Shown piece after piece: positions 53,975 through 61,956 of a stretch of DNA of 64,000 bases (position 1 is its first letter; the number at the start of each line of letters is the position of its first letter). The DNA lies in the NCBI RefSeq assembly GCF_000597725.1, contig NZ_JFBL01000001.1, positions 186,001 through 250,000 of the forward strand, in the 5' to 3' direction. The position numbers and the translations under genes were made by a program. Source of the DNA: Sulfurospirillum arcachonense DSM 9755 (GTDB taxonomy: Bacteria; Campylobacterota; Campylobacteria; Campylobacterales; Sulfurospirillaceae). A model generated the notes under the pieces. It saw nothing but the letters and a program-made list of their open reading frames with translations. It had not been told where the DNA came from and ran no database searches.

Positions 53975-54273
53975 TCTTCCTCCATTACAGCTCTTAAAGG
54001 GAATTTATTCTTTTTTGCTGAATTTAAAACCTGTGCGACTTTTGTTTCAGCAATCTCGTTCGTATAAACTCCACATAGTCCACTTCCACTATTATGAATC
54101 CGAAGCATAATAGTATATGCATCTTCTTCACTTTTGTGAAAGATATTCATAAGCGTACTTACAACAAACTCCATACTAGTATAATCGTCATTTAAAAGCA
54201 GAACCTTATACATCTTAGGTCTTTTAAGTTCTATCTCTTCTTTTACTTCACTTTCAAATTCGTTTTCTATCAT
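53971..54273 (-). CDS. clpS: ClpA adaptor protein ClpS
   Basis: A 100-residue adaptor that carries N-degron proteins to ClpA. The binding-site strings are conserved: [42 protein letters not shown]. The first 20 residues are acidic and flexible. It is at the head of the clpS-clpA-aat line, with overlaps of 4 and 26 bases, and touches the upstream TlpA-like gene (1-base overlap). Confidence 0.96.
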
Positions 54274-54866
54274 TACATCTTCTTTATTTTATCAAGGTCT
54301 TTTTGTATTATATCTATATCTACTTTACCTATATAAAACTTATTTTCAGGATTTTCTTCATAAATATCTGTAATCTTTTGATATTTTCCATCTTTTAATA
54401 CTACTTTAAAAGGTAATTGTACTGCTTTATCGTACTTAATATCTTGTGTTATTGTATTGACTATTTTTTCATTCTTCGGTGAATTTACTATAAAATAATA
54501 AGCATTATACTTTGAAGAAAAATTATCTACAACATACTGATTTGTAACCTCTTCTAGGTAATTAAAACCTATTAAAATAACATCTTTATCGTTTTTAAGT
54601 TGAAAATTCATGAGATTAGCGGCTTCTTCTTGACAAGGCTGACAAAAAGTACCAAAGATATCAAAAAGCAAGATCTTACTTTCATCACCAGCAACTACAA
54701 AGCCACCATTTTTTCTAAGAAGAGTTATCTTACTACCAACAACACTTACTAATTCTACTTTGTCGCCGTCTTTATAGGTAGGTTTTTGTGCTGTTCCTTC
54801 TTCTACTCCACATCCAACAAAAGCAAGTACTAAAAATAAACTAACTAAAACTTTCCAATAACGCAT
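54273..54866 (-). CDS. TlpA-like thioredoxin-fold lipoprotein
   Basis: A 197-residue lipoprotein. I choose the ATG at 54866 because AAAGGA lies 5-10 bases upstream, and this start gives a good signal peptide ([16 protein letters not shown] with lipobox FVGC). The longer frame to 54911 spoils it. The thioredoxin fold has the redox motif CxxC in [12 protein letters not shown] (CQPC), so it probably reduces or isomerises disulfides in the periplasm. The client could be a cytochrome c maturation factor or another protein, but no neighbour points to it. Confidence 0.88.
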
Positions 54867-54973
54867 AAATTTCCTTTTCTCATTAATCCTGTGTCGCTTT
54901 ACATGTAGCAACAGATTTATATATTTATTTTATCAATACTTTGTAAATATTATCTAAATATAAAAAACTAATA

Positions 54974-55435
54974 TTATTTATAAAAGTGGTTTTTCATCGC
55001 AGTCTGCGCTTCACGATTGGCTGTTCTTCTTTTTAAATCTTCTCTTTTATCATGAAGTTGTTTACCACGAGCCAAAGCAATTTTAATCTTTATAAAATTT
55101 TTGTGATTAAAATACATACTTGTTGGAACTATAGATAAACCATCTTTACTTGATTTTTCTTCTAACTTCTCAATCTCTTTTAGATGTAAAAGAAGTTTTC
55201 TCTCTCTTCTCTCATCTGGTCTATAATGAGAATGTGTAGTGTCAAGATTTGATATATGAGCATTGAGTAAAAACGCTTCACCTTTTATAATCTTTACAAA
55301 AGAGTCTTTTAGATTGACCCTACCTAGACGTATAGCTTTAACTTCACTACCTTTTAAAACCATACCAGCTTCATAACTATCCAATATCTCATAGTCATGA
55401 TACGCCTTTTTATTTCTTGCTATTGTTTCACCCAT
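54974..55435 (-). CDS. smpB: SsrA-binding protein SmpB
   Basis: It brings tmRNA to stalled ribosomes for trans-translation. Family strings are [39 protein letters not shown] and [20 protein letters not shown] at the basic C-terminal tail. The length of 153 is normal. The tmRNA gene itself is not in the window. It sits downstream of the ATPase-HNH pair and upstream of the tlpA-like gene. The tag it helps to add is read by ClpA and, if the SspB-like assignment is right, by the protein at 62997-63443. Confidence 0.97.
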
Positions 55436-55504
55436 TGTTCTTAATTTTCCTAATTCTCTTTTTATGTTCTATTATATCAAATCAATCCTAATTCTTCGGA
55501 TACA

Positions 55505-56392
55505 TCATTTATGAAAATTTTTCAACTGCTTTTTAATATCTTGAGTTAGTTTTGAATGATTTCTTTTATTTATATCTTTTTCTTCTAAATAATTACTAAA
55601 CACAAAATTTTCAACATCTTCTTTTGAATATCCTAATTCTTTATAAAAGCTATTGTATAACTCTTTTATTCTGTCTTCATTATATACTTGTGTTTTGTTC
55701 CAAATCTCTTTTGCTATATCTTCATGTTCTTCATATATTTTATCTAAATGAAATCTTTTTATAGTAGTTTCGCATTTTGTATCATCTTTTTCATTTGATT
55801 TTAATTTCACTTTTAACTCTATGTCTTTACTTACGGGTAATCCATCTACATGTAAAGAAAAAGTTGCTCTTTTATGAAAATCATCCTTATATGGATGAAG
55901 AATATTCCCTACATATGAAGCTTTTCCTCTAAATTTACTATTGCAAATATAACAAGAAGGAATTAAATTATAAAATGAAAGAGAAAGATGTGGATACTTT
56001 GCTTTTGGATAATAATGCTCTAATGTTGCTACAGTGTCATCATATTCTTCTGAATTTTTTTTATAAAAATAAACATAATTATTATTGCAAAAAGGACAAC
56101 TTTTTATACCAAGCTTACTAAAGTTTTTAATAAACTTTTCTTTTGCCCTATGTCCAGTATAATTAAAAATATTTTCTATTTCTTTTAAATCTTCTTTACT
56201 TTTCCCAGCCAATAAGTTTCTGTAACGCATTTCTATTTTATCTATATCTGATTTAATGATAGATTCTAAATTATCAGCAATATAATCTAAAGAAAGCTCT
56301 TTTAGTTTTAATTTTATATTCTCTATATTTATAGAACTTATATAATTATTTAAAAAAGATTCATCAACTAAAGACAAATCAACTTTTTTCAT
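55505..56392 (-). CDS. HNH endonuclease of a Septu-like (PtuB-type) defence pair
   Basis: A 295-residue protein with an HNH domain in the middle. A zinc-binding CxxC pair is Cys99/Cys102 (SCPFCNNN), the second is Cys147/Cys150 (SCYICNSK). The catalytic string is LEHYYPKAKYPHLSLSFYNLIPSC, with His126, Asn142 and Asn151 as the nearest HNH residues. This layout is typical of PtuB-like nucleases, which act with an ATPase against phage DNA. It overlaps the upstream ATPase gene by 14 bases, so the two are coupled. The flanking N- and C-terminal helical parts are not recognised. One TACATGTA copy is at 55847 (FSLHVDG). A TIGR02646-type HNH is a possible alternative name. Confidence 0.72.
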   Translation of the reverse strand: MKKVDLSLVDESFLNNYISSINIENIKLKLKELSLDYIADNLESIIKSDIDKIEMRYRNLLAGKSKEDLKEIENIFNYTGHRAKEKFIKNFSKLGIKSCPFCNNNYVYFYKKNSEEYDDTVATLEHYYPKAKYPHLSLSFYNLIPSCYICNSKFRGKASYVGNILHPYKDDFHKRATFSLHVDGLPVSKDIELKVKLKSNEKDDTKCETTIKRFHLDKIYEEHEDIAKEIWNKTQVYNEDRIKELYNSFYKELGYSKEDVENFVFSNYLEEKDINKRNHSKLTQDIKKQLKNFHK

Positions 56393-57995
56393 TTTTCTCT
56401 CGAATATCTTGTATTTGTTTTTCTATCTCTTTTTGTTTTCTTTCTAACTTTTGAAGTTCATTTTCACTTCCATAAACTTTTTCATTAAGCATAGCTTGGA
56501 GTGTATTTTGAAGTACAGGTTCTCCAATCAAAGATATAACATTTGTACAATGTTTAAATTCTTCTTTAGATAATTCATCTTCTTTTTTTAAACAATCTAT
56601 AACCTCATTTATCTTTTCTTTAGCAAACTCGCCCATAAGTCCATCTTTCATAAAAAAGCCATGACTTAAAAGTGTATGGATATTTGCTCCAAAAGTTTCG
56701 ATGTTTGGATTTTCTTGTTTTCCATTTTTTAAAAAAATGACATTTTCTTTTGGTAAGTCTGAAAGAATAAATGGAGAATGAGAAGATAAAATAAATTGTA
56801 TATTCTTATATTCATAATTATTTTTTGAAAATTCATATAAGTAATTAAGATATTTTTTTTGCCAATTTGGATGTAATGAAATTTCCCCTTCATCAATTAA
56901 TATTAAAGCGTTGTTTTTATAATATTTATCAAATATCCTACTAAATAATAGTAAAAAACTATATTCTCCATCACTTAACTTTATATCAAATCTAAAATTA
57001 AGAAAATTAAGATCATTTTCCATAGAAGAACCTTTTTGATAAGTTATCTTTCTATAATTCTTAATAAAATCCTTATCTAAGTCCTCTATGGCAATTTTAT
57101 ATTCTGTAAAATACTTATTTGGCCTAAATTTATTTTCAATTTCTGAAACTATATAATTAATTGTTTTTAGTTTATTTTCATCGGTTTTATTTTGAAAGTT
57201 TGTTAAAATAGAATCAAAGTCTTCTAAATCTATATCAAAAAAATTACTTGAATAAAAATTATTTAAATTAAGGTCTAAATGTGAATTTGCAATCATCAAA
57301 TTGAATTTAAGTAATTTTATTCTATCTTCTTTTAAATCGTAATCTATATTAGAGAAAATATCGCCATTAAAATTTCTTTTTTCTTTTAGCATTCTTTTCA
57401 TTAAATCATGTAATTTTTCTATTTCACTTGAAATTGTATCAATTAGTAAATATTTTGGAGAATCAAAAGGAATGCTTATACTATTATTCTTTAATAAATT
57501 TACAATTAACTGCATATCTGTATTAGTCTTTCTATAATCAACAGTAATTACTTCACCCCAAAATGAATTATAATTTTTTTCCTTATTTACTAAAAATATT
57601 TTTTGATAATTATTGATATAAAAATCATAAATATTAGTATTGTGTTTAATATCTATTATTTTATTTTCACCAATTGTCAAATGACCAAATAATAATTTTT
57701 CATTAAGCGTATGTTTGATGTATAAATTATTATCATGAGAATAAATTAAAATTTTTCTTATTTTTTGATTCATATCAGTTATTACATTTAATAAAGAAGT
57801 TTTCCCACTCCCATTCTCACCAACAATTGCAGTAATATTTATGTTTTCAGGAAAGATACTTACATATTTTTTATCTTCATCGATAATAAGGTTATTAGAA
57901 TCTTTATCGTAGTTACATGTAAACCGAGGAGAAAAGTTAAAACCTTGGTTTTTTATGTTTTTATAATCTTCAACCCAAAGATAAACAAGTTCCAT
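56379..57995 (-). CDS. AAA/ABC-type ATPase of a Septu-like (PtuA-type) defence pair
   Basis: A 538-residue protein of the RecF/SMC-like AAA_21 class. Walker A is at 59-67 (GENGSGKTS), the signature at 341-344 (SDGE), Walker B at 364-369 (LILIDE), and the H-switch at 404-406 (SSH). The stretch FGANIHTLLSHGFFMKDGLMGEFA after the ATPase core is typical of the large family of defence and retron-linked ATPases, of which PtuA is one. The last 30 residues form a coiled coil. It starts 2 bases after ispE without a visible ribosome site and overlaps the HNH gene by 14. The gene looks more AT-rich than its neighbours. The exact system type is inference. Confidence 0.75.
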   Translation of the reverse strand: MELVYLWVEDYKNIKNQGFNFSPRFTCNYDKDSNNLIIDEDKKYVSIFPENINITAIVGENGSGKTSLLNVITDMNQKIRKILIYSHDNNLYIKHTLNEKLLFGHLTIGENKIIDIKHNTNIYDFYINNYQKIFLVNKEKNYNSFWGEVITVDYRKTNTDMQLIVNLLKNNSISIPFDSPKYLLIDTISSEIEKLHDLMKRMLKEKRNFNGDIFSNIDYDLKEDRIKLLKFNLMIANSHLDLNLNNFYSSNFFDIDLEDFDSILTNFQNKTDENKLKTINYIVSEIENKFRPNKYFTEYKIAIEDLDKDFIKNYRKITYQKGSSMENDLNFLNFRFDIKLSDGEYSFLLLFSRIFDKYYKNNALILIDEGEISLHPNWQKKYLNYLYEFSKNNYEYKNIQFILSSHSPFILSDLPKENVIFLKNGKQENPNIETFGANIHTLLSHGFFMKDGLMGEFAKEKINEVIDCLKKEDELSKEEFKHCTNVISLIGEPVLQNTLQAMLNEKVYGSENELQKLERKQKEIEKQIQDIREKNEKS

Positions 57996-57997
57996 GA

Positions 57998-58762
57998 TTA
58001 GTCATTTTCTACTGTAAAAAAACTACTTCCACTTCCGCTAAAGTACCAGTCTTTTTTTCTGTACTCTTCTAGTTCTTTATACACACTTAAAGATGCTCCA
58101 AAGAGGTCATTCAGTGTAATATCATCATAAGTATTTAAAAGCTCTTGTGAGCTCATTTTAGACATCTTTGTGGCTAAATCTACGTCTACCTTATAGTCTT
58201 GTCTAAAAGCTCTATAAACAGCTCCTGTGTCGCACTTTATATTTGGTGTCATAGTCTTTACATGTAAAGGTTCTTCTTTGAACTCTTTTACTACTTCACC
58301 TATACCACTTACATTGGCACTATTGTAGCCATATACGAAAAAAGGAACATCGGCTCCAACACTTAGTCCAATGTTGGCTAACTCTTCATTGCTAAGGTTT
58401 AGATTTACTTCTTTGTTTATCATATGCAAGAAGATTGCAGCGTCGCTACTTCCTCCACCAAGTCCAGCAAATGAAGGGATATTTTTCTTTACTGACAAAG
58501 CTTTACATGTAAAGAACTCTTTGAGCTGTTTTTCAAATCCTGCCTTACATGTAGCATCATACGCTTTGTAAATAGTATTTGATTTTAACTCACATCCAAA
58601 CTCGCCATGGAGTTCAAACGCATCATCTGTTTTTTTTTCAACAAACTCTAACTCATCAAAAAGATTTTTTACTAAAATAAAACGAGACAACAGTTCATGA
58701 TAGTTATCTCTTTTGCCAACTATTTTTAAAAAAATATTTACTTTAGCGTAAGCTTTATACAT
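57998..58762 (-). CDS. ispE: 4-diphosphocytidyl-2-C-methyl-D-erythritol kinase
   Basis: GHMP kinase of the MEP pathway to isoprenoids. The ATP loop is PSFAGLGGGSSDAA, and the N-terminal strings KAYAKVNIFLKIVGKRDNYHEL and the C-terminal FSGSGSSFF fit the family. Length 254 is typical of Campylobacterota. It overlaps csrA by one base and is followed after 2 bases by the ATPase of the defence-like pair. Three TACATGTA copies lie in it. Confidence 0.95.
   Translation of the reverse strand: MYKAYAKVNIFLKIVGKRDNYHELLSRFILVKNLFDELEFVEKKTDDAFELHGEFGCELKSNTIYKAYDATCKAGFEKQLKEFFTCKALSVKKNIPSFAGLGGGSSDAAIFLHMINKEVNLNLSNEELANIGLSVGADVPFFVYGYNSANVSGIGEVVKEFKEEPLHVKTMTPNIKCDTGAVYRAFRQDYKVDVDLATKMSKMSSQELLNTYDDITLNDLFGASLSVYKELEEYRKKDWYFSGSGSSFFTVEND
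58259..58553. repeat. Three TACATGTA palindromes in ispE
   Basis: Copies at 58259-58266, 58504-58511 and 58546-58553 encode EPLHVKT, FFTCKAL and DATCKAG. The last two are 42 bases apart. Confidence 0.8.
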
Positions 58763-58998
58763 TATTTTTTCTTAAGTTTTTTACTAAAATCTTTTAAAGC
58801 TGTTACATCTTCAACTTTACTTGTTGCTCCAATATTAGCTTGTTTTACTTCTTCTTCTAACTCTTCACGTAGTATGAGCATATCGTTTGGTGCATCAAAA
58901 CCTATACGAACTACTCCCTTAGATATATCGATAACTCTAACCGTAATCTTTTCATCTAAGACAACTGCTTCACCTACTTTTCTCGAAAGTATTAGCAT
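58762..58998 (-). CDS. csrA: Carbon storage regulator CsrA
   Basis: A 78-residue RNA-binding regulator of translation. The canonical N-terminal MLILSRKVGEAVVLDEKITVRVID and VRIGFDAPNDMLILREE are intact, with the conserved Arg6 and Arg44-type contacts. The C-terminal tail (about 20 residues, lysine-rich) is longer than in E. coli. It overlaps truB by 7 bases and ispE by one. In Campylobacterota CsrA is usually controlled by FliW and acts on flagellin, but FliW is not here. Confidence 0.96.
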   Translation of the reverse strand: MLILSRKVGEAVVLDEKITVRVIDISKGVVRIGFDAPNDMLILREELEEEVKQANIGATSKVEDVTALKDFSKKLKKK

Positions 58999-59831
58999 AA
59001 TTTCACCTTGTTTAGTATGTATTCTACTCTTTCATTTCCATCAACTATTTCCAAAACAGACAACTCATCACCGTGGACTATTTTATATAACCCTTCTTGT
59101 TTTATCTTAAAATTGTCTATAAAAACTTTACGTCCTAGTTCTATATCTTCTATATCGCCCAAATACTCATTATCTTCTATATCTATATAATCAATTGGGT
59201 TTAAAGCTTTTTCATTATCATATACAAACTCACCTTCATTTAAACGCTCCAAGCTACTTAAAGCTCCATCAAACCCGAGTTTACTCGCTATGATACTTCC
59301 CATACTTCGTATATATCCACCTTCACTTATGGTGATTTCAAAAGTTAAAAAAGGATGCATATAATGGAGGATTTTAAAATCATGGATAGTACTTTTAATA
59401 GCATTGAGTTCAAACTCTTTATCTTCACGAGCCAAGGCATACGCACGTTTTCCATCTACTTTTTTAGCACAATACTTTGGAGGAAGATACTCAATCTCAC
59501 CCTTCATGGAATCAGCTATGATTTTAATCGAATCTGGAGCAAAAGGCATAACTTCTTCTACTTTTTCTACTTTTTCAATATCTAGTGTAGGACTCGTTGC
59601 TCCTATCCATAGAGTTGCACGGTACGCTTTTTTCTTTTTTTTCAAAAATCGAAAAAGTTTTGTATACTGTCCAAAAGCTATGATGAGAGCACCTTTTGCA
59701 AAAGGGTCTAACGTCCCTGAAAATCCTGCTTTTTTTACATTATACTTACGTTTTATTTGACCTAAAAATCTATTAGAAGACATATTTGTCGGTTTATACG
59801 CAACAAAAAGTCTGTTAAAGTTTTCTCTCAC
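58992..59831 (-). CDS. truB: tRNA pseudouridine(55) synthase TruB
   Basis: It makes pseudouridine 55 in tRNA. The catalytic Asp is Asp42 (KKAGFSGTLDPFAKGALI). The start is GTG at 59831, with GGAGAC about 8 bases upstream, and the residues MRENFNRLFVAYKPTNMSS fit. Length 279 is normal. It heads the truB-csrA-ispE unit and the 82-base gap upstream carries copy C of the dispersed hairpin element, which contains its ribosome site. Confidence 0.95.
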   Translation of the reverse strand: MRENFNRLFVAYKPTNMSSNRFLGQIKRKYNVKKAGFSGTLDPFAKGALIIAFGQYTKLFRFLKKKKKAYRATLWIGATSPTLDIEKVEKVEEVMPFAPDSIKIIADSMKGEIEYLPPKYCAKKVDGKRAYALAREDKEFELNAIKSTIHDFKILHYMHPFLTFEITISEGGYIRSMGSIIASKLGFDGALSSLERLNEGEFVYDNEKALNPIDYIDIEDNEYLGDIEDIELGRKVFIDNFKIKQEGLYKIVHGDELSVLEIVDGNERVEYILNKVKLC

Positions 59832-59843
59832 TCTAATGTCTCC

Positions 59844-59904
59844 TTTTCACAGAGCAAAGCACTGTAAAAATTCCTAGCACTAAAGCTTTACTGAAGTAAG
59901 AATA
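59844..59904 (-). repeat. Dispersed intergenic hairpin element, copy C (upstream of truB)
   Basis: The hairpin arms are TTTTCACAG (59844-59852) and CTGTAAAAA (59862-59870) around a 9-base loop. Compared with copy B the second pair from the loop is swapped (A-T for T-A), which keeps the stem. The downstream segment CACTAAAGCTTT (59878-59889) begins like copies A and B and then diverges. Confidence 0.75.
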
Positions 59905-59913
59905 AAAAAACAT

Positions 59914-61956
59914 TTAGATTTTTTCTATAAATGAAGCAAGAATGTCTCTTTTTGTACCAGAAAAATTAATCTTGAGTTTAAATTCACGTTTAACTTTACT
60001 TATCTCAAAAACACGACCAATACCAAATATTTTATGTTTTACCAAGTCACCTTTTTTATAAGAGGTGGTTTTTTCTAAAACAAGGGATCCTTTACAAACC
60101 CCTGACTCTTTTAAAAACCTACTCTTTGTAAGCTCTGTTCTTCTACCTTTGTAAAATCTACTCTCTGAAAAACTCAAGGTCAATTCTTCTCTTGCACGTG
60201 TAATTGCTACGTATCCAAGACGTCTCTCTTCTTCTATATCGCTTCCATCTCCAACTAGTGGCAAAAAGCCCTCTTCCATCCCTATAACAAACAGATGGTC
60301 AAACTCCAAACCTTTACTTGCATGAATACTCATAATAGAGATATTTTCACTATCTACCCCATCTTGATCACTTTGAAGAGCTAAGTCATTTAAAAACTCA
60401 TCTATACTCATCTCAGGATTTTGTTTTACCATATCTCTAAAAAGACCATAAAATTCATCTATATTTGAAACACGCTCAAGTGAATCAGGTAACTGGTCAA
60501 AATATTTTTTGATACCAAAAATATTTTCTAATTCATCGATGATATTATAAGTCGCTTCATGAGATACTTCTACCAGTCTTTGTATATTTTGAACAAACTC
60601 CATCAAAGAAGCGTAACATTTTTTACTTACCATTGCTTGTAAGTCTTCGCCTTTTTGATTTATATAATCATAAACAGAAAGTTGATTTTCATAAGCACCT
60701 TTTAAAATTTTATCTACTGTTACTTTTCCTAAACCTCTTTTAGGTCTATTAATAACTCTTTTTATAGAAAAATCATCATGTGGGTTTGCGATAATTCTAA
60801 GATACGAAATCAAATCTTTGATTTCTGTTCTCTCATAAAACTTTACTCCTCCAACCATGTTATAAGGAACGCCAAAACGATTGAGTCCCTCTTCTAAAGA
60901 ACGACTCAATGCATTTATACGGTAAAGAACAGCGATGTCTTTTGCACTCACTCCCTTGTCTATAAGAGCTTTAATTCTTTTGGCTATAACTGTAGATTCA
61001 TTTTTTTCATCAATTGATTCTATTGTTGCTATTTTAGCCCCATCACCTTTTGTGCTTTTTAAAATTTTTCCTATTCGAGAGCGATTATGTTCTATAAGTT
61101 CATTAGCTGCTGTTAATATGTTTGTGGTTGAGCGATAATTGTTTTCTAACTTTACTACTTTAGTACCTTCAAAAGAGTCTTTAAAATCTAAAATATTTTT
61201 TATATTAGCTCCACGCCAACCATAGATACTTTGGTCATCATCACCAACAACACAAATATTATCATGTGTTGAACAAATCTTTCTAAGAAGTTGATATTGC
61301 AAGTCATTTGTATCTTGGTACTCATCTACCATAATGTACTTATAACGCTCACTTGTCTCTTTACATAAATCTTCATTTTCATCTAGTATTTTATAAGGAA
61401 GTACTAATAAATCATCAAAATCTACCAAATTGTTATCTGCTATATATTTTTCATATTTTTCATATGCATTGGCTATTTTTTTATAGTTTTCTTGTTCTGC
61501 TTTATCCCAAGCTACTTGTGGGTCTATAAGTGAGCTTTTATATCTAGATATTTCACTTGCAACTAAGCCTATTGGTAAATCAATACCAAAACTTTTTATA
61601 ATTCTCTTTTTATCATCAGTGTCAATTACTACAAAACTATTTTTTCTTCCTAGTTTTTCCATGTGAAATTTTAAAAATAGAAGTCCAAACTTATGAAAAG
61701 TACAAAGAAGTGGAGGATAAGAACTCCCTTCTATAAGACTTAATGCACGATCACGCATTTCATTGGCTGCTTTATTGGTAAAAGTAAGCGTAAGTGTATT
61801 GGCTGGGTCAATTCCCAAAGAAATAAGATACGCTAATCTAGCTGTAATAGTTTTTGTTTTACCACTACCTGCACCTGCTAATATCAGAACTGGTCCATCT
61901 ATCGTTTTAACTGCTTCTTGTTGTGCTTCGTTTAATGTTTCTAATATATTTTGCAT
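59914..61956 (-). CDS. uvrD: ATP-dependent DNA helicase, UvrD/PcrA/Rep family
   Basis: Superfamily 1 3'-5' helicase of 680 residues. Motifs are Walker A (LAGAGSGKTKTITARL), DEYQDTN (motif II), VVGDDDQSIYGWRGAN (motif III), and the C-terminal motif VI region YVAITRAREELTLS. It probably acts in excision repair with UvrB, also in this window, and in replication. A short C-terminal segment (YKKGDLVKHKIFGIGRVFEI) is the Tudor-like polymerase-binding end of PcrA/UvrD. UvrD, PcrA and Rep cannot be separated by eye. Confidence 0.95.
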   Translation of the reverse strand: MQNILETLNEAQQEAVKTIDGPVLILAGAGSGKTKTITARLAYLISLGIDPANTLTLTFTNKAANEMRDRALSLIEGSSYPPLLCTFHKFGLLFLKFHMEKLGRKNSFVVIDTDDKKRIIKSFGIDLPIGLVASEISRYKSSLIDPQVAWDKAEQENYKKIANAYEKYEKYIADNNLVDFDDLLVLPYKILDENEDLCKETSERYKYIMVDEYQDTNDLQYQLLRKICSTHDNICVVGDDDQSIYGWRGANIKNILDFKDSFEGTKVVKLENNYRSTTNILTAANELIEHNRSRIGKILKSTKGDGAKIATIESIDEKNESTVIAKRIKALIDKGVSAKDIAVLYRINALSRSLEEGLNRFGVPYNMVGGVKFYERTEIKDLISYLRIIANPHDDFSIKRVINRPKRGLGKVTVDKILKGAYENQLSVYDYINQKGEDLQAMVSKKCYASLMEFVQNIQRLVEVSHEATYNIIDELENIFGIKKYFDQLPDSLERVSNIDEFYGLFRDMVKQNPEMSIDEFLNDLALQSDQDGVDSENISIMSIHASKGLEFDHLFVIGMEEGFLPLVGDGSDIEEERRLGYVAITRAREELTLSFSESRFYKGRRTELTKSRFLKESGVCKGSLVLEKTTSYKKGDLVKHKIFGIGRVFEISKVKREFKLKINFSGTKRDILASFIEKI

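Follow-up and report, generated by a model that had tools for sequence, protein, structure and literature searches.

Between ispE and smpB, the 64-kb window (the whole stretch of DNA that we analyzed, 64,000 nucleotides from Sulfurospirillum arcachonense DSM 9755) carries a pair of genes that we refer to as M62A and M62B. M62A encodes an ABC-type ATPase of 538 amino acids, and M62B encodes an HNH nuclease of 295 amino acids. Both are on the minus strand, as is the entire line of genes from truB to clpA, and the pair interrupts the housekeeping series truB-csrA-ispE-smpB. The features of the locus are as follows:

57998..58762, minus strand: ispE, the upstream border of the insert, kept by relatives
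56379..57995, minus strand: M62A, ABC/OLD-type ATPase, PDC-M62A (PADLOC model PDLC04737, E = 1.8e-106)
57771..57995, minus strand: constant N-terminal block of M62A, residues 1-75, MELVYLWVxxYKNI...GENGSGKT, with Walker A (from conservation)
56991..57770, minus strand: variable arm of M62A, residues 76-335, proposed to be an exchangeable sensor (from variability)
56964..56978, minus strand: ABC signature LSDGE, residues 340-344; S341 and G343 are at least 95% conserved
56859..56909, minus strand: Walker B and D-loop, the LILIDEGEISLHPNWQ region, with D368 and E369, at least 95% conserved
56616..56696, minus strand: constant C-terminal block of M62A, TFGANIHTLLSHGFFMKDGLMGEFAKE, residues 434-460 (from conservation)
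55505..56392, minus strand: M62B, HNH nuclease, PDC-M62B (PADLOC model PDLC04743, E = 1.9e-59; AlphaFold pLDDT 86.9)
56087..56098, minus strand: first CxxC pair of M62B, C99 and C102, probable zinc ligands, invariant in 48 sequences
55940..56020, minus strand: HNH core of M62B, E125-H126...N142...C147xxC150-N151; H126, N142, and the cysteines are invariant in 48 sequences
55477..55521, minus strand: what appears to remain of the M62B tail of an earlier allele, KIFINDVSEELGLI-stop, in a different reading frame from the present M62B (from a tail profile)
54974..55435, minus strand: smpB, the downstream border of the insert

M62A and M62B overlap by 14 bases; 2 bases separate ispE from M62A, and 69 bases separate M62B from smpB. 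A check of the window's open reading frames agreed with the first-pass annotation on the positions, the overlap, both gaps, and the PtuA-PtuB order of the genes. Of 71 full M62A genes, 66 are likewise followed by M62B, the two genes overlapping slightly or lying a short gap apart, so the pairing is a pattern beyond chance. No integrase ORF adjoins the pair and no repeats bracketing it were found in the window, which is also what had been noted at first reading. A promoter scan identified 34 sites, near the 31 expected from shuffled sequence. Because promoter-like sites are at the level of chance, it is plausible that the pair has no promoter of its own. Its expression would probably depend on read-through and translational coupling from ispE.

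M62A contains the motifs GENGSGKT, LSDGE, LIDEGE, SSHSP, and TFGANIHTLLS...GEFAK, and both Walker A (GENGSGKT, with K65) and Walker B (D368-E369) are intact and at least 95% conserved. M62B has an HNH core flanked by two CxxC pairs. The distance from H126 to N142 is 16, which is the same as for H75 and N91 in the PtuB protein of Septu EcB88 from E. coli; mutating that PtuB motif, or the Walker motifs of PtuA, abolishes immunity, and the cleavage target of EcB88 is tRNA-Tyr (PMC13096335). Both M62 proteins match the PADLOC models for PDC-M62 over most of their length (with the E values given above), and the two genes are adjacent and in the same order as in that type; we judged membership by model matches plus adjacency. 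All 45 aligned relatives of M62A match PDC-M62A, and all 48 aligned members of the M62B family match PDC-M62B.

Most of what the first-pass annotation said about these proteins stands. The FGANIHTLL-GEFA stretch of the ATPase and the two CxxC pairs of the nuclease are present, and the models and motifs bear out a Septu-like ATPase and HNH pair in the PtuA-PtuB order. The HMM comparison with the PtuA and PtuB families, which it had proposed as a check, assigned the pair to a family of defense candidates, PDC-M62, and not to any non-defense family. It had also suggested a distinct subtype: the subtype is distinct, but PADLOC had already catalogued it as a candidate. Similarly, the extra helical ends of the nuclease are real, but they are a family trait: across the family, the N-terminal part is helical and variable, and the C-terminal tail is helical and conserved.

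We considered whether PDC-M62 is just another label for canonical Septu, so that the pair would lie within the PtuA/PtuB family. M62A and M62B do have weaker PADLOC matches to PtuA1 (E = 8.6e-24) and PtuB1 (E = 1.6e-10), the gene order and the catalytic spacing are alike, and double Septu/PDC-M62 calls occur in the Bacillus cereus group (PMC11811056). However, the PDC-M62 models score far higher, and both proteins are far below the NCBIfam cutoffs: M62A scores 57.6 bits against the PtuA model (NF041760; cutoff of 500 bits), and M62B scores 23.8 bits against the PtuB model (NF041761; cutoff of 150 bits) and 27.3 bits against TIGR02646 (cutoff of 52.15 bits). A profile of M62B does reach a TIGR02646 protein in PDB (E = 2e-5), but when the predicted structure of M62B (pLDDT 86.9) was compared with solved structures, nothing significant was found and the solved PtuB was not recovered. 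M62B also differs from PtuB in its extra helical N- and C-terminal parts, and M62A differs from PtuA in its constant MELVYLWV start and its variable arm. Since the pair fails the PtuA, PtuB, and TIGR02646 cutoffs and keeps the catalytic residues that Septu needs, it is best described, from these comparisons, as Septu-like and not as canonical Septu; we consider the canonical assignment unlikely. Among other families, the second-best match for M62B is PDC-M01 (E = 1.5e-15), a PADLOC candidate that also combines an ATPase with an HNH protein, but this match is much weaker than that to PDC-M62. The AriA protein of PARIS is an ABC ATPase that is related to M62A, but its partner AriB, which is not an HNH protein, is absent here.

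Retrons of type I-A (Eco7/Ec78 and Ec83) use PtuA and PtuB as effectors, and by sequence, the top match of M62A in PDB is the PtuA of retrons Ec83 and Eco7. PtuA is also its top fold match (E = 1e-6), with a low TM-score and from a poor model (pLDDT 65). As the closest solved relatives are retron proteins, the pair might be the effector half of a retron whose reverse transcriptase was lost or is encoded elsewhere. However, the source genome as a whole has no match to the reverse transcriptase family (RVT_1, PF00078). No Rfam RNA reached the gathering score at positions 54000-60000, in a scan that could miss any retron RNAs that Rfam lacks. In the related loci, the only families that recur next to the pair are generic or syntenic ones, and no third gene recurs besides these. 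We rejected the retron identity because neither a reverse transcriptase nor an RNA family was found, and we view it as very improbable. With no consistent third gene and no reverse transcriptase, we read the pair as a complete two-gene system.

The pair is accessory and inserted. The genes ispE and smpB almost abut in nearly all relatives, where the stop codon of ispE is at the ATG of smpB or between a few bases and a few tens of bases away from it, and among six genomes of its genus, only the source genome (G000) has the M62 pair. Other genomes of the family have other genes at the junction: G001 and G013 have a PemK/MazF toxin gene, and G004 has a sulfate-symporter-type gene on the opposite strand. 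Because the site is empty in relatives and holds toxin or transporter genes in others, we conclude that it takes up extra genes, and the comparison shows that the pair does not belong to the core gene set here, within the housekeeping operon, as had been suspected. The junction might be a minor hotspot for insertions. In two of the loci that we collected (L040:7426-7737 and L041:5618-6853), the stop codon of the PemK/MazF toxin gene abuts the ATG of smpB, and the junction in G013 has a further gene that weakly matches a TIR effector model. We also considered a functional link with smpB, but besides the window, just 2 of 80 loci (L085 and L137) are within 7 kb of smpB, versus about 0.5 expected by chance, which is too weak.

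Elsewhere, M62 pairs have another home. In at least 10 Sulfurospirillum (g3) genomes, the pair lies about 55 bases behind an aguB-like gene (a carbon-nitrogen hydrolase). This site is empty in other genomes, including G000, so the window's pair is at a different site from its relatives' pairs. No relatives were found in viral contigs, whether by single protein or by alignment; phage records gave distant ATPase matches only, and plasmids gave distant relatives that cover at most half of the query. At the aguB-like site in Sulfurospirillum, the conserved leader between the aguB-like gene and M62A contains two copies of TTTACATGTAAA, 22 bases apart, which could pair with each other (L045:7058-7111, L048:6257-6310, and L050:6176-6229); this leader is absent from the empty sites that we examined. 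In three genomes (G031, G056, and G007), the copies of M62A (in L046, L053, and L054) have stops or inserted sequence and M62B is open. In G304, an M62 pair with another type of nuclease (L165:4220-7502) has the same M62B tail as its neighbors at the aguB-like site, and a MazF-like gene comes after it.

The ends of M62A are conserved and the arm between them is not. Across 67 distinct proteins, 16 of the first 20 positions are at least 90% identical, although M62A loci were found largely via the conserved N-terminus, so this conservation is partly selected for. At residues 441-460, 15 of 20 positions are at least 90% identical, and from residues 81 to 339, no position is. The arm ranges from 119 to 384 amino acids, and just 121 of 2,278 pairs of arms (5.3%) are detectably related, versus 100% of pairs for the N-terminal end, the C-lobe, and M62B. 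For the arm in the window itself, the 399 genomes of the order yielded no convincing relative; M62B is matched in 82 of them, including the source genome. As a control, we compared seven PtuA proteins: 38% of the arm pairs matched, versus 71% and 100% for the two ends. Variable arms are general in this group of ATPases, with a sharper contrast in M62A.

Arms and nucleases have also been reshuffled. Three pairs of loci (L043/L048, L045/L048, and L125/L130) have M62B proteins that are 92% identical and arms that are unrelated. Conversely, in four other pairs of loci (L044/L066, L093/L116, L045/L086, and L097/L102), the arms are 69-86% identical and M62B is just 39-68% identical. For L044 and L066, identity falls from 69% in the arm to 54% in the C-lobe and 39% in M62B; for L097 and L102, it is 86% in the arm and 58% in M62B. 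Across 58 pairs, similarity in the C-lobe tracks similarity in M62B (rho = 0.63; none of 500 permutations was as high). For the arm, rho was 0.00 and 237 of 500 permutations were as high, but most arm similarities are at the level of noise, which limits the power of this test.

The aguB-like site offers a view of exchange at a fixed locus. Between G034 and G007, identity is 0.84-0.90 upstream of the pair, 0.15-0.71 within it, and 0.88-0.98 downstream, with breaks where M62A starts and within the final codons of M62B. Across eight alleles from this site, pairwise identity is 0.74-0.96 in the flanks and 0.25-0.59 in the region of the arm. These alignments indicate that replacement at this locus in Sulfurospirillum affects arms as well as whole pairs and leaves the flanks conserved.

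A similar event seems to have left a trace in the window. The 69-base gap, which the first-pass annotation had recorded simply as a gap, is more than a spacer: it contains what remains of an M62B tail. M62B proteins commonly end in SKLIKDISEELGLI-stop; the window's M62B ends in SKLTQDIKKQLKNFHK instead. When we scored the window with a profile of M62B tails, the remnant scored the highest of 127,912 positions, with 19.6 bits; the maxima for shuffled windows were 7.6-13.0 bits. At other loci, no remnant tails above threshold were found downstream of M62B. The simplest account of the remnant of a different M62B in this gap is that an earlier allele was replaced: apparently, a different M62B allele was once present between ispE and smpB, and when the present pair replaced it, the breakpoint would have fallen within the tail, like the one at the aguB-like site.

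The pair does not look ameliorated. Its G+C content of 22.7% is the lowest of 124 stretches of the same size in the window (median 30.6%); defense genes are commonly low in G+C. The opposite had been suggested at first reading from one copy of TACATGTA in each gene. The copies are there, at 57914 in M62A and 55847 in M62B, but a stretch of 2.5 kb with two copies is close to average for this genome (1.05 expected at the genome's density; P of two or more = 0.28).

Our preferred interpretation, which we consider probable, is that M62A and M62B together make up a complete anti-phage system of the PDC-M62 type, which is Septu-like and consists of two genes, with the arm as an interchangeable sensor. 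By analogy with Septu, the ABC ATPase M62A probably oligomerizes and keeps the HNH nuclease M62B in check. A cue of infection would be sensed by the long arm, which separates Walker A from the signature motif. An ATP-dependent rearrangement would then release M62B to cut nucleic acid (perhaps DNA or tRNA), which would stop phage production, probably by abortive infection. The effector unit would be the C-lobe of the ATPase together with M62B, which would stay together, and recombination between the conserved ends would swap arms or whole pairs. The strongest candidate for the sensor is the arm, because no other part varies as much and because its movement is independent of the nuclease.

Two other explanations bear on this interpretation. 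The arm might simply be free of constraint and diverge quickly in place, with neither modular exchange nor sensing; this would fit with the arm being the least conserved part of other PtuA-like ATPases as well. However, rapid divergence in place does not fit with arms whose similarity exceeds that of the rest of the pair (L044/L066 and L097/L102), with the sharp breaks at the fixed aguB-like locus, or with the remnant M62B tail in the window, and we think it improbable. Alternatively, the pair might not be antiviral at all: it might combine a repair ATPase of the SMC/Rad50 kind and a nuclease, or it might be a module that excludes plasmids or resembles a toxin. M62A does have distant matches to SMC/Rad50 proteins, and some relatives have a MazF toxin between ispE and smpB. 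However, the patchy presence of the pair, the exchange of alleles, and the matches to HMMs of defense families are unlike repair genes, and the closest structural relative is PtuA. A function outside of defense therefore seems quite unlikely to us.

PDC-M62 might also be a combinatorial immune system, with a fixed C-lobe and HNH effector and with sensor arms taken up by recombination between the constant ends. This is a real possibility, but we lean slightly against it. If so, a lineage could change which phage cue it detects and leave the killing machinery unchanged, a logic that is comparable to how type I restriction enzymes exchange their recognition domains. To our knowledge, how Septu-like systems recognize infection is unsettled. 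That the arm is exchanged freely, while the rest of the ATPase and the nuclease are linked, points to the arm as the sensor, and the natural arm swaps in the M62 family provide material for direct testing. We found no published exchangeable arm in Septu-like systems in the full-text literature (preprints and most subscription papers lay outside the search). Thus, the exchangeable arm and the remnant tail are new as far as the literature that we searched shows; the PDC-M62 type itself was already catalogued. The locus also has putative defense genes placed between housekeeping genes, outside of defense islands, where searches based on islands would miss them.

Finally, TACATGTA is a highly iterated palindrome, and no literature printing it for these bacteria was found. 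It has 31 copies in the window, versus 1.2 expected, and 1,124 copies in G000, versus 54 for a reversed control word. It is at background level in the other families of the order and is enriched in almost all genomes of this family, with up to 1,727 copies (the exception is G009).
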